Origin: Pirellula sp.
GTDB lineage: Bacteria; Planctomycetota; Planctomycetia; Pirellulales; PNKZ01
Assembly: GCA_013822735.1 (NCBI GenBank)
Contig: PNKZ01000007.1
Span: 1-64,000, forward strand
Direction: 5' to 3'
DNA: 64,000 nucleotides
Shown in pieces: positions 1 through 5,205 of this stretch; within the stretch, counting starts at the first letter, position 1, and each line of letters begins with the position of its first letter. The position numbers and the translations under genes were made by a program. The notes below the pieces were generated by a model. That model saw only the letters and a program-made list of their open reading frames with translations. It was not told where the DNA came from and did not search any database.

Positions 1-239
1 AAGCAGCTCTTCTTGCAGCAGGTCGGCTTCGGGCAGCAAGCGGGCTTCGGGCAGCACTTCGGCTTGCAGCACTTCGAGAACAGGTCGCATTTCGGCTTGC
101 AGCACTTCGGCTTCGGGCAGCAAACGGGCTTGCAGGCCGGCTTGCAACAAGAAGCTTTGCGGCAACAAGCAGCTTCCGACGAGGAAGCGCCGACCGCCAA
201 CAAACACACGGCAGCGAGGGTGGAAACGATGGAACGCAT
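1..239 (-). CDS. Secreted Cys/Lys/Pro-rich repeat protein, 5' part only
   Basis: The reading frame is open from the ATG at 239 to the left edge, giving 79 residues and no stop. The first 23 residues are a clear signal peptide (MRSIVSTLAAVCLLAVGASS, then SEA) with an expected cleavage just before ACC. The mature part is built of short units such as CCKPKC, CCPKPAC and CCPKPTC, about one third cysteine, the rest mainly Lys and Pro. A GGGAG lies 11 bases before the start. I know of similar CKP-repeat secreted proteins in planctomycetes but no assigned function. Paired cysteines in an exported basic repeat suggest a disulfide-linked wall component or metal binding, which is inference. The plus-strand frame over the same bases is a Gln/Gly-rich shadow of these repeats. 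Confidence 0.75.
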   Translation of the reverse strand, partial: MRSIVSTLAAVCLLAVGASSSEAACCRKASCCKPACKPVCCPKPKCCKPKCDLFSKCCKPKCCPKPACCPKPTCCKKSC

Positions 240-727
240 GGCAGTACAAACTCCCAACAGGAAACAGGATGGAACAGGTGGCTTGTTGCCGGCGCCTCTG
301 CGGCGTGGGCAAGTTGGTCATCGTCGGGAGTTCGGAGAAATCTAAAGCATTGAGGAATATGGTGGAGATGTTCAAGCCTTGGCGCGCATGCCGACCGGCG
401 AAACCTTGCCTTGCTTGCAGATCGCGGCGAGAGCGACGCGCACGACTGTCGACGACGGTTGTTCGGGACATAGGCCCGCTAAGTCGGTCAAATGAAGCAG
501 TGACCGACCGTCGATTCGCTACAAGCGTTACTGCCGGAATCGACTAGAACCGTGGTCACCGATGCCGGTCGATGACAGTCTCCCTCAGAGTGCCCGTGCA
601 CGGCGTGCGACGACGCACGGCATTGCGCAAGATTCGCGGCAGGCGGCGCCGGATTCGACTCTGCGGAAGAGCTGCGTCGCAACGGTCAGACGTGTTGCGT
701 AATCCGCAACGAAGCCTCGCCGAGGCT
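240..727. other. Intergenic region, no gene seen
   Basis: This stretch lies upstream of the leftward Cys-rich gene and downstream of the leftward gene at 728-1216. Several short frames cross it on both strands but none has a plausible start, ribosome site or recognisable composition. It should hold the promoter of the Cys-rich gene. I cannot place boxes with confidence. Confidence 0.5.
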
Positions 728-1216
728 TTAAACTTCTTGCCCTACCAGCACCAGGCTGTCTTGGAAGTGGGCAATGGCCTGCGTCGGGTTCAGGTTGAAG
801 ATCACGCGACCTTCCGTGCTCCAATGCCCTTCGCTATAGCGAAATACGGCCGTCGCGGCGCGCAAGTTACTCACGGCCTCGACGTCTTCCATTCCGCCCC
901 CTTCGACCGCTTCGAACGACACCGTCACGGCGACCAGCGCTCGCAACTCGGCCGTCTGCTTGTCGCGCGCGTAGGCGACGCCGTCTTCGAATTCGCAATC
1001 TTTCCAACGTAGGCCGCGGGGGCGACCGCTTGATGCGGCCAGCTCGAAGAACTTCGCCTCGGCACGCTCGCGTTCGCGGTGAAAGGCCTTCCGGGCGCGT
1101 TCGAATTCTTCGGTCTCACGCTGTTCGCGAGAGGGACCGCTCGCCCGAAGATACCAAGTGTAGAGTACGATCGTCGCGACGACGACCAACGGAATCACCC
1201 AAAACAACGGCGACAT
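728..1216 (-). CDS. Single-pass membrane protein of unknown function
   Basis: 162 residues from the ATG at 1216. The frame extends upstream, but the hydrophobic segment begins right at MSPLFWVIPLVVVATIVLYT, so I chose this start. One N-terminal membrane helix (about residues 3-21) is followed by a charged, probably coiled-coil stretch rich in Arg and Glu (about 30-60) and a soluble domain with alternating beta-type sequence (about 70-160). I do not recognise the family. The arrangement suggests an anchored protein with its domain on one side of the membrane. It lies 179 bases downstream of the ABC exporter pair on the same strand and could be read with it. Confidence 0.6.
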   Translation of the reverse strand: MSPLFWVIPLVVVATIVLYTWYLRASGPSREQRETEEFERARKAFHRERERAEAKFFELAASSGRPRGLRWKDCEFEDGVAYARDKQTAELRALVAVTVSFEAVEGGGMEDVEAVSNLRAATAVFRYSEGHWSTEGRVIFNLNPTQAIAHFQDSLVLVGQEV

Positions 1217-1395: not shown

Positions 1396-3273
1396 TTAAG
1401 CCGCGGTGGCTTGGATGAACTGTTCGTAAAGCTCACGGTAAGTTCCCGGCTGCGAAACCAGCTGATTATGTGTTCCCCGTTGTACGATCCGGCCATTGGC
1501 AAGCACCAGCACCAGGTCCGCGTGGCGGATCGTGCTGAGTCGATGTGCGATCACAAACGCCGTCCTACCGGCCAAAAGCTTCGCCAAGGCGTGTTGCAGC
1601 CGAGCTTCCGTCAGGATGTCGATGGAGCTGGTCGCTTCGTCAAGAATCAGGATCCGCGGATCGGCTAGCATGGCGCGCGCGAAGCAGAGAAGCTGCCGTT
1701 GACCAAGCGAAAGGTTGCACCCGTTCTCGCCGACTTCCGTATCAAAGCCTCGAGGCAACGCTTCGATCAAATCTAGGCAATCGAGCTTCGCCACGGCGTC
1801 GCGCACCGCGACCTCATCGGCATCCGGCCTACCGACCCGAATGTTGTCGCGCACCGTGCCTGAAAAGAGAAAGTTCTGTTGAAGCACGATTCCCAAGTGC
1901 TTATGCAGCTGCCGGTTCGGCAACGCCCGCATGTCGGCTTCGTCGATCAACACTCGGCCGGCCGTCGGCAGGTAGAACTTCGCCACGAGATTGATAATCG
2001 ACGTCTTTCCGCTCCCCGTGTGTCCCACCAGCGCGATCGTCTGGCCCGGCTCGGCGGCGAACGACACCTCGTGCAGTACCGGCACGCCTGCATCGTATTC
2101 GAAGCCGACGTTCTCAAATCGGACCCGTCCCGCGATGTCGTTGCCTTGAGTAATGCCCGAATCCTCCCGGGGTGCGTCCTGCCAGTCGGGCTCCGTCTGC
2201 AGGAGTTCGCGAATCCGTTCGGCGCCGGCCATTGCCGTGAGCGCGGCGTTGTATTGTTCCCCGAGTGCCTGAATCGGTTGAAACAAGATGTTCGCCAAGA
2301 AGAAAAATTGAATCAGCGAACCGATCGGCATCTGGATGTCGGGGCTGAGCACGCGATACCCGCCTACGGCCAACAGCAACGCGAGGAAGATCTGATTGTT
2401 AAACTCCAAGAGCGGCAGGAAGCTGCCGGAGGTGCGCGCTGCTTTGAGCGTGTATTGCGAATGGTCGTCGATCAAGTCGCTGAAGCGCTCGGCGTTGACG
2501 TCTTGTCGCACGAAGCTCTGCGTCACTTCGATGCCGTTCACGCTTTCCGCGAGCGACGACGTGATCCGGCTGAAGCTTTCGTGTACTTCCCGATGCACCT
2601 GGCTGAGCCGCTTGCGGAACACAAGATTGACGCACCATAGTACGGGCGCGAGCAGCGACACGACCAGGAACAGCGGCAAATCATAGAGCGCCATGAGCAG
2701 CCCCGCGCCGATGATCTGCCCAGAGCCGACGATGCTCACGAAGAACACGTCCTGAATTCCCGCGCGCACCGCTTCTACGTCGCTCGTCGTCCGGCTGATA
2801 ATCCGACCGAGCTTCGTTCGATTGAAGAAGCTCATCCGCAGTTCTTGCAGGTGCGCGAAAATCGCGTTGCGCAAATCCTGCACCACCGACTCGCCGAGTT
2901 CCAAGGCGAGCCGTTGCCGAAAATGCAACGTGCCGTTGGTGAACGCCGCCAGCGCCAGATAACCGGCCACGCCCCAGGCCAACCCCGTCGCCGAACCGTG
3001 CGACACCGGCCCTTCGATCACGCGCCCCAACGTCCAAGCCATGAGCGGCAGTTGGATCGAGCGCAGCACGACGAAGGCGAACAACCGATTGCGCTTCGGA
3101 GCGTGAGGATTTGTGAACTGGTAGATCCAGGCAATGAGCGACCACTCCAGCGGCTTCGTCGCCGCTTCGTTCGGCTCGCCGTCGTGCGTCGGCGCACGCC
3201 AAGCGTTCACCATCTTCCCGGCGGTGCCGGTTGCGGCTTGCGACTCTGTCGACTTACGTGCGGAGGTCGCCAT
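1396..3273 (-). CDS. ABC exporter half-transporter with consensus catalytic site
   Basis: 625 residues: an N-terminal exporter membrane domain of six helices (about 50-350) and a C-terminal nucleotide-binding domain. Visible motifs are Walker A GHTGSGKTS, signature LSLGQ, Walker B ILILDEATS with the catalytic Glu, and the H-loop VIAHRLST. The signature departs from LSGGQ at the third position. The start codon follows the stop of the upstream half-transporter with no gap, so the two are co-translated and almost certainly form one heterodimer. In such exporters the consensus ATP site pairs this Walker B with the partner's LSGGQ. The substrate (lipid, peptide or drug) cannot be told from sequence. 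Confidence 0.9.
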   Translation of the reverse strand: MATSARKSTESQAATGTAGKMVNAWRAPTHDGEPNEAATKPLEWSLIAWIYQFTNPHAPKRNRLFAFVVLRSIQLPLMAWTLGRVIEGPVSHGSATGLAWGVAGYLALAAFTNGTLHFRQRLALELGESVVQDLRNAIFAHLQELRMSFFNRTKLGRIISRTTSDVEAVRAGIQDVFFVSIVGSGQIIGAGLLMALYDLPLFLVVSLLAPVLWCVNLVFRKRLSQVHREVHESFSRITSSLAESVNGIEVTQSFVRQDVNAERFSDLIDDHSQYTLKAARTSGSFLPLLEFNNQIFLALLLAVGGYRVLSPDIQMPIGSLIQFFFLANILFQPIQALGEQYNAALTAMAGAERIRELLQTEPDWQDAPREDSGITQGNDIAGRVRFENVGFEYDAGVPVLHEVSFAAEPGQTIALVGHTGSGKTSIINLVAKFYLPTAGRVLIDEADMRALPNRQLHKHLGIVLQQNFLFSGTVRDNIRVGRPDADEVAVRDAVAKLDCLDLIEALPRGFDTEVGENGCNLSLGQRQLLCFARAMLADPRILILDEATSSIDILTEARLQHALAKLLAGRTAFVIAHRLSTIRHADLVLVLANGRIVQRGTHNQLVSQPGTYRELYEQFIQATAA

Positions 3274-5205
3274 TTACGAAGCCCTCTCCAACGGTTCCGG
3301 CTCGTTGAAGTCGACTTGAATCCGCGCAGCCTTCCGATACGGGCCGGGCCGATGCATCAGTTCTTCGTGCGTCCCTTGGTCGACGATCTCGCCGTCGTCG
3401 AGCACCAACACGAGGTCGGCCCGTCGCAACATACTCAACCGATGCGCGACGACGATCGTCGTACGCCCCTGCATCGCGCTCTGCATCGCATCGAGAATCT
3501 CGTGCTCCGTGCGAGGGTCGACGGCCGCCGTCGGATCGTCCATCAGCAAAATCGGCGGCGAGAGCAGTAGGGCCCGAGCGATGGCGAGCCGCTGCCGTTG
3601 TCCGCCCGAGAGGTTCGAGCCTCCTTCACGCAGCTTCGTCTCATACCCCTGCGGATACTCGCAGATAAATTCATCGGCCGAAGCGATGCGGGCCGCGGCT
3701 TCCACTTGTTCCGGCGTCGCGTCGGGTCGACCGAACGCAATGTTGGCCGCGATCGTGTCGCTGAAGAGGAAGCTTTCTTGAAACACGACGCCGATGCTGC
3801 GTCGTAGTTCGTCGAGTTCAAATTGCCGCAGGTCGACGCCGTCGAGCAACACGCGGCCGGCCGTAGGATCGTAGAACCGCGGAATCAAACTCAGCAGCGA
3901 AGTCTTGCCCGCTCCCGTCGCACCGACCAGCGCCACGCACTGCCCCGGCTTAATCGTCAGCGAGACGTTGCGCAACACCGGCTTCGTCGGGTCGTAGCCG
4001 AACGACACATTTTCGAACACAAGTTCGCCGGCGATTTTCGGCAAGCGCACCGGTGACGCAGGGGAGCTGATCTCAACCGGCGCGTCGACAATCTCGAACA
4101 CGCGTCGGGCGCCGGTGAGGCTTTGCTGCACGCTATTGATGATGCCGGCCACGCGCGTCACCTGCGAGGAAAATTGTTGCAACAAGCCGGAGAAAACAAT
4201 GAGCCCGCCGCCGAGCGGCAAAGCGCCTTGAATGACGAGCCAGCCGCCGTAGCCTAGGAGCACCGCTTGATTGAGGGACGAGAGCATTTCGACGGTCGGC
4301 GTGTAGCGACTGACTTGCTCGAAAATCCAATGCTGTTGCGTTCGCACGGCGCCGCTGGCTTGATCGAACTTGGCGATTTCCTCCGGCTCGCGCCCGAAGC
4401 CTTTCACCACATGCACGCCGCGCACGTTTTCCGTGAGCGTGAGCACCATCCGATCGACAAGATCGCGATTGCGCTCGTAAGCCGGCCGGACCTTGCGCGA
4501 GAAGCGGACCGAGAGTAGCCAAGTTACCGGCATCGTCGCCAAACAGGCGAGCGTCAGACCGACGTGCAGCCGAAGCATATAGACGAAATAGAGCACGAGA
4601 GACAGCAACACCATGATCACGGGGATCACGACGCCGTCGACGAAAAGCCGGACCGATTGTACGTCGCCGGTCACGCGATTGATGATCGAGCCGGTCGTGT
4701 GACGGTCGAAAAAGCGGAAGCCGAGTCGCTGAAGTTTGTCGTACACCAGTGAGCGAAGCGCGACGACGATGCCGAGTTGCACGACGCGGGCGACCACGAT
4801 CGCCAGCCAGAAGCTGAACAGGGCTCGCACCAAACCGACGACCAGCACCGTGCCGGCGGCAACCAGCGCGACGCGATACGGAGTCCACTCCGACGGCGGC
4901 GTCCAGCCGAAGGGGAAGTTCGGCGACGGGCTCCCGGCGACGGCCGCATGCCGAATCACGTCGATCGCCGTACCGAGCATCGTCAGGCCGACGACGCTGA
5001 GCACCAACAGAACTCCCTGCAAAGCAATAATTTGCAGGCAGCCGAAGCGATACTTCCAGGCGAGCGCCAGCATCCGCCGAACGAGCGCGGCATTCGATAA
5101 ATCGGCGGACGGTTCGGCAATAGGGTCGGCGTGCGACAACTTGGGCGCGATTCCAAATGGCGACGACCGGCAAGCATCCGAGCAGCGCGAAGGTCGTCGT
5201 TTCAC
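3274..5205 (-). CDS. ABC exporter half-transporter with degenerate Walker B
   Basis: 643 residues with an exporter membrane domain (about 45-360) and an ATPase domain containing Walker A GATGAGKTS, canonical LSGGQRQRLAIARAL, Walker B ILLMDDPTAAVD and H-loop VVAHRLS. The residue after the Walker B Asp is Asp instead of the catalytic Glu. With LSLGQ in the partner this is the pattern of heterodimeric exporters such as TM287/288, which have one weak and one active ATP site. The N-terminal 35 residues are hydrophilic and the first codon is GTG, so the true start may lie further in. It is the first gene of the pair and follows a long gene-free region. Confidence 0.88.
   Translation of the reverse strand: MKRRPSRCSDACRSSPFGIAPKLSHADPIAEPSADLSNAALVRRMLALAWKYRFGCLQIIALQGVLLVLSVVGLTMLGTAIDVIRHAAVAGSPSPNFPFGWTPPSEWTPYRVALVAAGTVLVVGLVRALFSFWLAIVVARVVQLGIVVALRSLVYDKLQRLGFRFFDRHTTGSIINRVTGDVQSVRLFVDGVVIPVIMVLLSLVLYFVYMLRLHVGLTLACLATMPVTWLLSVRFSRKVRPAYERNRDLVDRMVLTLTENVRGVHVVKGFGREPEEIAKFDQASGAVRTQQHWIFEQVSRYTPTVEMLSSLNQAVLLGYGGWLVIQGALPLGGGLIVFSGLLQQFSSQVTRVAGIINSVQQSLTGARRVFEIVDAPVEISSPASPVRLPKIAGELVFENVSFGYDPTKPVLRNVSLTIKPGQCVALVGATGAGKTSLLSLIPRFYDPTAGRVLLDGVDLRQFELDELRRSIGVVFQESFLFSDTIAANIAFGRPDATPEQVEAAARIASADEFICEYPQGYETKLREGGSNLSGGQRQRLAIARALLLSPPILLMDDPTAAVDPRTEHEILDAMQSAMQGRTTIVVAHRLSMLRRADLVLVLDDGEIVDQGTHEELMHRPGPYRKAARIQVDFNEPEPLERAS

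Follow-up and report, generated by a model that had tools for sequence, protein, structure and literature searches.

The first 239 bases of the window, a stretch of 64,000 nucleotides from Pirellula sp., cover the beginning of a gene whose product is an exported Cys/Lys/Pro repeat protein; complete copies of the gene are found in related genomes. Judged from its sequence, the window protein appears to be an extreme basic form, restricted to the genus, of a set of Cys-Pro repeat proteins that occurs across the order. We consider the chances evenly balanced that it is an exported structural protein that cross-links the cell envelope through disulfides, and this is the reading that we prefer. The window consists of bases 1-64000 of contig C7 of a 6.88-Mb genome in 38 contigs, and window base 1 is the contig's first base. 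The features of this region are:

1..239, minus strand: 5′ part of the gene for the exported Cys/Lys/Pro repeat protein; 79 codons run from 239 to 3, with bases 1-2 starting the next one, and the 3′ part lies past the contig end
171..239, minus strand: signal peptide MRSIVSTLAAVCLLAVGASSSEA, read from the sequence, with predicted type I cleavage at S-E-A/A; conserved in all four congeners
3..170, minus strand: start of the mature repeat region, with CCKP, CCPKP, CKP and CCKK units; 19 Cys in 56 aa, net charge +14
72..89, minus strand: CDLFSK non-repeat spacer interrupting the repeats; resembles the CDLFGGLKGLL, CSLFDRC and KGLFNRCKK spacers of other proteins
251..255, minus strand: GGGAG, a likely ribosome-binding site 11 nt upstream of the ATG, within a short block conserved in four congeners in the alignment
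728..1216, minus strand: upstream neighbour, encoding 162 aa with a hydrophobic segment in the N-terminal part; conserved order-wide, without a match in Pfam
1396..5205, minus strand: two consecutive ABC exporter genes (ABC_membrane plus ABC_tran), the nearer one also upstream in congeners

From the ATG at 239 the minus-strand frame is open through the left edge, and the visible share amounts to the first third of the gene. Positions 239 to 3 translate as MRSIVSTLAAVCLLAVGASSSEA followed by ACCRKASCCKPACKPVCCPKPKCCKPKCDLFSKCCKPKCCPKPACCPKPTCCKKSC, that is, a 23-aa signal peptide and 56 mature residues. The original prediction had remarked that the frame has no stop within the window; this is true, and since window base 1 begins the contig, the missing stop reflects the assembly edge and is no property of the gene. 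A 1500-base DNA query revealed no overlap with the contig start elsewhere in the genome. The missing C-terminus was not found in the same genome with a congener C-terminus as the query, which matched only a paralogue on contig C10 and weak candidates, while an N-terminal query gave weak matches at three loci (L003-L005, E 0.2-0.4). Bridging the gap via the gene downstream of the congener copy L007 was rejected, as the homologue of that gene sits inside contig C1 (at 202,993 of 1.11 Mb), away from the contig ends.

The signal peptide, claimed from the outset and supported by its retention in the four congeners, precedes the first Cys, and sequence inspection detected no lipobox ([LVI]-[AST]-[GA]-C) ahead of that residue. 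Together with the SEA-A site, this leads us to expect release by signal peptidase I. The visible mature part contains 34% Cys (16 of the 19 residues in CC pairs), 25% Lys and 18% Pro, in agreement with the earlier estimate of about 30% Cys, mostly paired. Such a Cys density is unmatched among the open frames of the window, the runner-up being a ferredoxin-type sequence with 10 Cys per 56 aa. The mature part had been described as consisting only of CCKP or CCPKP units; it does contain short Cys/Lys/Pro repeats, but the CDLFSK spacer breaks them. The segment CCKPKCDLF is identical between the window protein and the protein at locus L084.

The complete gene is present in all three other genomes of the genus that were examined, where it encodes proteins of 216, 214 and 206 aa. 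These copies are syntenic, preceded, as in the window, by the genes for the 162-aa protein and an ABC exporter; the downstream side differs among the three. An early stop or absence from close relatives had been named as outcomes that would overturn the prediction; both were looked for, and each of the three congeners was found to carry a complete, syntenic frame. Pairwise dN/dS values of about 0.2-0.35, with most changes falling on third codon positions, indicate that the frame is translated and under purifying selection. The signal peptide, the start region and the spacers are conserved, and so is the C-terminal region among the three complete copies. The other reading frames across the repeat are open too, and the Cys-rich frame could conceivably be an accident of G+C-rich repeat DNA in which another frame or none is used. 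Against this stand the conserved elements just listed, the third-position changes and a GC3 of 0.78-0.85; the conservation refutes an accidental frame in practice, and we assign it a negligible probability. On this sequence evidence the Cys-repeat frame is a genuine gene, and the original observation of an exported Cys/Lys/Pro repeat frame is confirmed by translation, composition and the complete congener copies.

A genuine gene might still be a broken remnant in the source species, with a stop or frameshift just past the contig end. Its 3′ part does lie beyond that end, and the congener C-terminus matched only the C10 paralogue and weak candidates. However, the 79 visible codons are intact, their changes are biased towards third positions, dN/dS is about 0.23-0.31 relative to the three congeners, and assemblies commonly break at repeats. 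We regard a remnant as very improbable.

The complete mature proteins contain 23-26% Cys, 16-18% Pro and 21-25% Lys and have a net charge of +36 to +43. Their repeats are broken by CDLFS, CSLFDR and KGLFNRCKK spacers, and they finish with AAAEPTCGCAAP or a similar sequence followed by an Ala/Pro/Lys tail. Inspection of the complete homologues detected no LPXTG, PEP-CTERM, C-terminal membrane segment or lipobox. The C-terminal anchor that the original prediction had suggested was thus not borne out, the tail of the homologues being soluble-looking. AlphaFold2, run on the single sequence of the complete L021 protein, gave no confident fold (mean pLDDT 48), which, as far as the weak evidence of a single-sequence model goes, would agree with a repeat that has no globular core. 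A profile of the four proteins, searched over 396 genomes of the order, showed this Lys-type to be confined to the genus, the weaker matches being proteins with CCEP units. A large Lys-type gene family within the genus was considered and rejected, as each genome yielded just one such protein.

The 162-aa upstream neighbour is present in 23 out of 25 genomes across the order. At eleven loci examined outside the genus it has no Cys-rich frame as a neighbour, and only within the genus is it followed by the Cys gene. For the ABC exporter genes, adjacency is the only tie to the Cys gene that can be shown. The neighbourhood bears on the second role that the original prediction had offered, extracytoplasmic metal capture, in which the paired Cys of a Lys-rich chain would hold Zn, Cu, Cd or Hg as thiolate clusters, comparable to cytoplasmic metallothioneins. 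The visible part with its 34% Cys has Lys adjoining the Cys pairs, Cys-Lys neighbours are usual in metallothioneins, and the Lys-type proteins share with these a Cys- and Lys-rich composition and CC motifs. That Lys-rich CC motifs also suit metal thiolates counts against the envelope-disulfide reading. On the other hand, the immediate neighbours, the 162-aa protein and the ABC exporters, include no metal-resistance genes. Metallothioneins are cytoplasmic, short, Pro-poor and devoid of a signal peptide, and proline in nearly every unit together with export to an oxidising space would be unusual for them. In the Pfam scan (E<=1), the complete proteins matched keratin models alone, with no metallothionein profile among the hits. 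We therefore consider metal capture unlikely.

The original prediction had proposed a comparison with secreted CKP proteins of other planctomycetes. When run, it uncovered an order-wide, mostly acidic set of Cys-Pro repeat proteins, and the planctomycete setting assumed for the protein holds, as the relatives belong to Planctomycetota/Planctomycetaceae. The same genome encodes two further exported proteins of this kind:

L012:1450-1863, equivalent to C10 about 145,300-145,713, plus strand: second exported Cys-rich protein, 137 aa, AGLLDRMMG...CCEATCAAAEPTC
L018:1222-2439, on contig C29, minus strand: third exported Cys-rich repeat protein, 406 aa, beginning AGLLDRMVGGGCCSPSCCEPSCC

With the 137-aa protein as the query (E<=1e-4), matches were obtained in at least 54 of the 246 genomes and 33 of the 114 genera of the order, these counts being lower bounds given the strict thresholds and the low-complexity sequences. 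A profile of eleven such proteins also matches members of a different family within the class. The order-wide set shares a signal peptide, CCEPxC or CCAPxC units and spacers such as GLFGGLKGLFxKC; often FxLLDRMLG is present, and often a tail such as APMPPAPxxDPSAS. The tail of the 406-aa protein is likewise Pro-rich (PMPPPPMVDPSATIRSGRSIAHAY), as in other members of the order. The 137-aa protein has orthologues in the whole genus and, beyond it, in one further genus of the family. Eight loci scattered over genera of the order (L032, L036, L039, L042, L047, L090, L093 and L097) encode short exported proteins made nearly entirely of CCEPxC/CCAPEPSCC units, with 22-34% Cys in the mature part. Apart from keratin-associated matches, no Pfam or NCBIfam family describes the Cys-Pro repeat proteins, and no publication on small proteins of this type from planctomycetes was found in a literature search that stopped short of the main wall-proteome work, so they may have been detected earlier as hypothetical proteins. 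The Cys-Pro repeat proteins are thus widespread in the order and apparently undescribed.

The Lys-type proteins and the CCEP/CCAP proteins have in common a signal peptide, CCxP units with CC-to-CC distances of 5 and 6 residues, non-repeat spacers of the GLF/DLF type that carry basic residues and, often, an Ala/Pro tail. They differ in charge: the net charge per residue of 61 CCEP/CCAP relatives averages -0.017 (SD 0.040), a mean biased by the acidic query used to pick them, in contrast to +0.19 to +0.25 in the Lys-type. The most basic of the 61 relatives reaches +0.10 per residue, and no comparably basic protein was found outside the genus, also when the Lys-type profile itself was used for the search. 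An LLDRMLG-type motif after the signal peptide is absent from the four Lys-type proteins, while 36 of the 61 relatives have it in a loose form. The order of units and spacers was scored on a profile built outside the genus and compared with that of unit-shuffled copies. The observed score was reached by 0 of 1000 shuffles for L006, 19 of 1000 for L007 and 230 of 1000 for L008; in a run of 200 shuffles the corresponding numbers were 2, 1 and 4, and 157 for the partial window protein. The CC spacings, the CCKPKCDLF segment and the unit order, which exceeds the shuffles for L006 and L007 but not for L008, make a common descent of the Lys-type and the CCEP/CCAP proteins likely, though unproven.

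The charge itself invites another explanation, namely a cationic secreted matrix protein that would bind acidic polysaccharide or holdfast material at the cell surface, with the disulfides merely stiffening it. The net charge of +36 to +43 and the Ala/Pro/Lys tail without an anchor would suit such a role. However, no polysaccharide or adhesin genes adjoin on the upstream side, and the relatives keep the Cys-Pro units and not the positive charge, which suggests that what unites the proteins is Cys and not charge. A matrix protein of this kind seems distinctly doubtful to us.

In the Pfam scan of the complete homologues (E<=1), the only matches were to Keratin_B2 models. Keratin_B2_2 scored 31.3 bits for L007, 25.8 for L006 and 15.7 for L008 against a curated cut-off of 27, and the partial window protein had no match; the CCEP protein L039 scored 63.6 bits with the same cut-off. 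Keratin-associated proteins belong to the intracellular hair matrix of animals, are rich in Ser, Thr and Gln and have no signal peptide, whereas the planctomycete proteins are bacterial, rich in Lys or Glu and equipped with one. What they share with the mammalian high-sulfur members (Keratin_B2, PF13885/PF01500) are the CCxPx/CEPTC pentapeptides and a 5-residue CC period. Keratin-associated proteins, with their CEPTC pentapeptides, constitute a matrix that is disulfide-cross-linked to keratin (PMC8143586). We interpret the match as convergence towards one shared cross-linking unit and not as descent; the hair-protein pentapeptide CCxPx is in use in bacteria, apparently by this convergence.

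For the preferred reading as a cross-linking envelope protein, the following course of events can be proposed. The general secretory route would export the protein and signal peptidase I would release it, yielding an unfolded or loosely folded, low-complexity chain of CCKP-type units that is broken by prolines and strongly cationic. Once outside the cytoplasm, the paired cysteines would oxidise and form disulfides within and between chains. Cross-linked in this way to the cell's acidic or neutral CCEP/CCAP proteins and its YTV proteins, the chains might become part of the insoluble protein layer of the envelope. The Planctomyces envelope has been reported as SDS-resistant, Pro- and Cys-rich and stabilised by disulfides (PMC3035269), and the 23-26% Cys and 16-18% Pro of the complete proteins fit this description. 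A protein sacculus holding disulfide bonds has been described in Rhodopirellula (PMC2754498), while the wall protein of Isosphaera pallida is an exception, reported to contain neither cysteine nor proline (PMC3072084). Of the candidate roles offered by the original prediction, cross-linked envelope material is the one that stands as the leading hypothesis, supported by the Cys-Pro composition, the YTV genes, the two additional Cys-Pro repeat proteins of the genome and the relatives across the order. Neither VKOR nor DsbB was detected in the same genome, although the controls were positive, which counts against this reading.

Cysteine-rich YTV proteins have been reported in planctomycete wall preparations (PMC8567305; PMC5287468), and the high cysteine content of the YTV domain has led to the suggestion that it influences the rigidity of the wall (PMC10632474). 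One such gene lies on the window's contig, and further ones are present on contigs C5 and C10 of the same genome:

C7:220,152-221,951 (locus L067), minus strand: YTV-domain wall protein, 752-aa frame

This frame has 110 Cys, arranged in CYTVCKPVYET repeats, and its mature part contains 15.4% Cys and 6.5% Pro. Identity of the window protein as a YTV protein (PF07639) was rejected, as the complete homologues had no YTV match in the Pfam scan (E<=1). Both kinds are exported, Cys-rich, repetitive, basic and restricted to planctomycetes, but the YTV proteins are long and rich in Tyr, Thr and Val, with 15% Cys and 6.5% Pro as opposed to 23-26% Cys and 16-18% Pro in the Lys-type. Chlamydial OmcA and OmcB are also Cys-rich envelope proteins of the PVC superphylum, but no sequence match links them to the complete homologues in the Pfam scan. 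The two differ from the Lys-type in that OmcA is a lipoprotein and OmcB a large protein containing few repeats. The chlamydial cysteine-rich envelope proteins are thought to replace peptidoglycan as a structural element (PMC2811131).

The YTV proteins, the named constituents of the envelope, are Cys-rich, yet the one examined is low in Pro, while the reported envelope is rich in both. Direct candidates for this missing share are the exported Cys-Pro proteins (about 13-34% Cys and 5-18% Pro), which are found order-wide and to which neither Pfam nor NCBIfam devotes a family. Cys-rich envelope proteins of planctomycetes are already known; what is apparently new, as far as the sequences tell, are the cationic CCKP form and its CCEP/CCAP relatives. 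As a speculation to which we give a rather low probability, the insoluble envelope of the order could in part be a two-component, keratin-matrix-like material, in which the genus adds a cationic CCKP partner to the common neutral-to-acidic CCEP/CCAP proteins, opposite charges gather the chains and disulfides lock them. If true, these proteins together with the YTV proteins would explain the Pro- and Cys-rich planctomycete envelope. As a separate observation, a genome without detectable VKOR or DsbB still encodes several very Cys-rich exported proteins.
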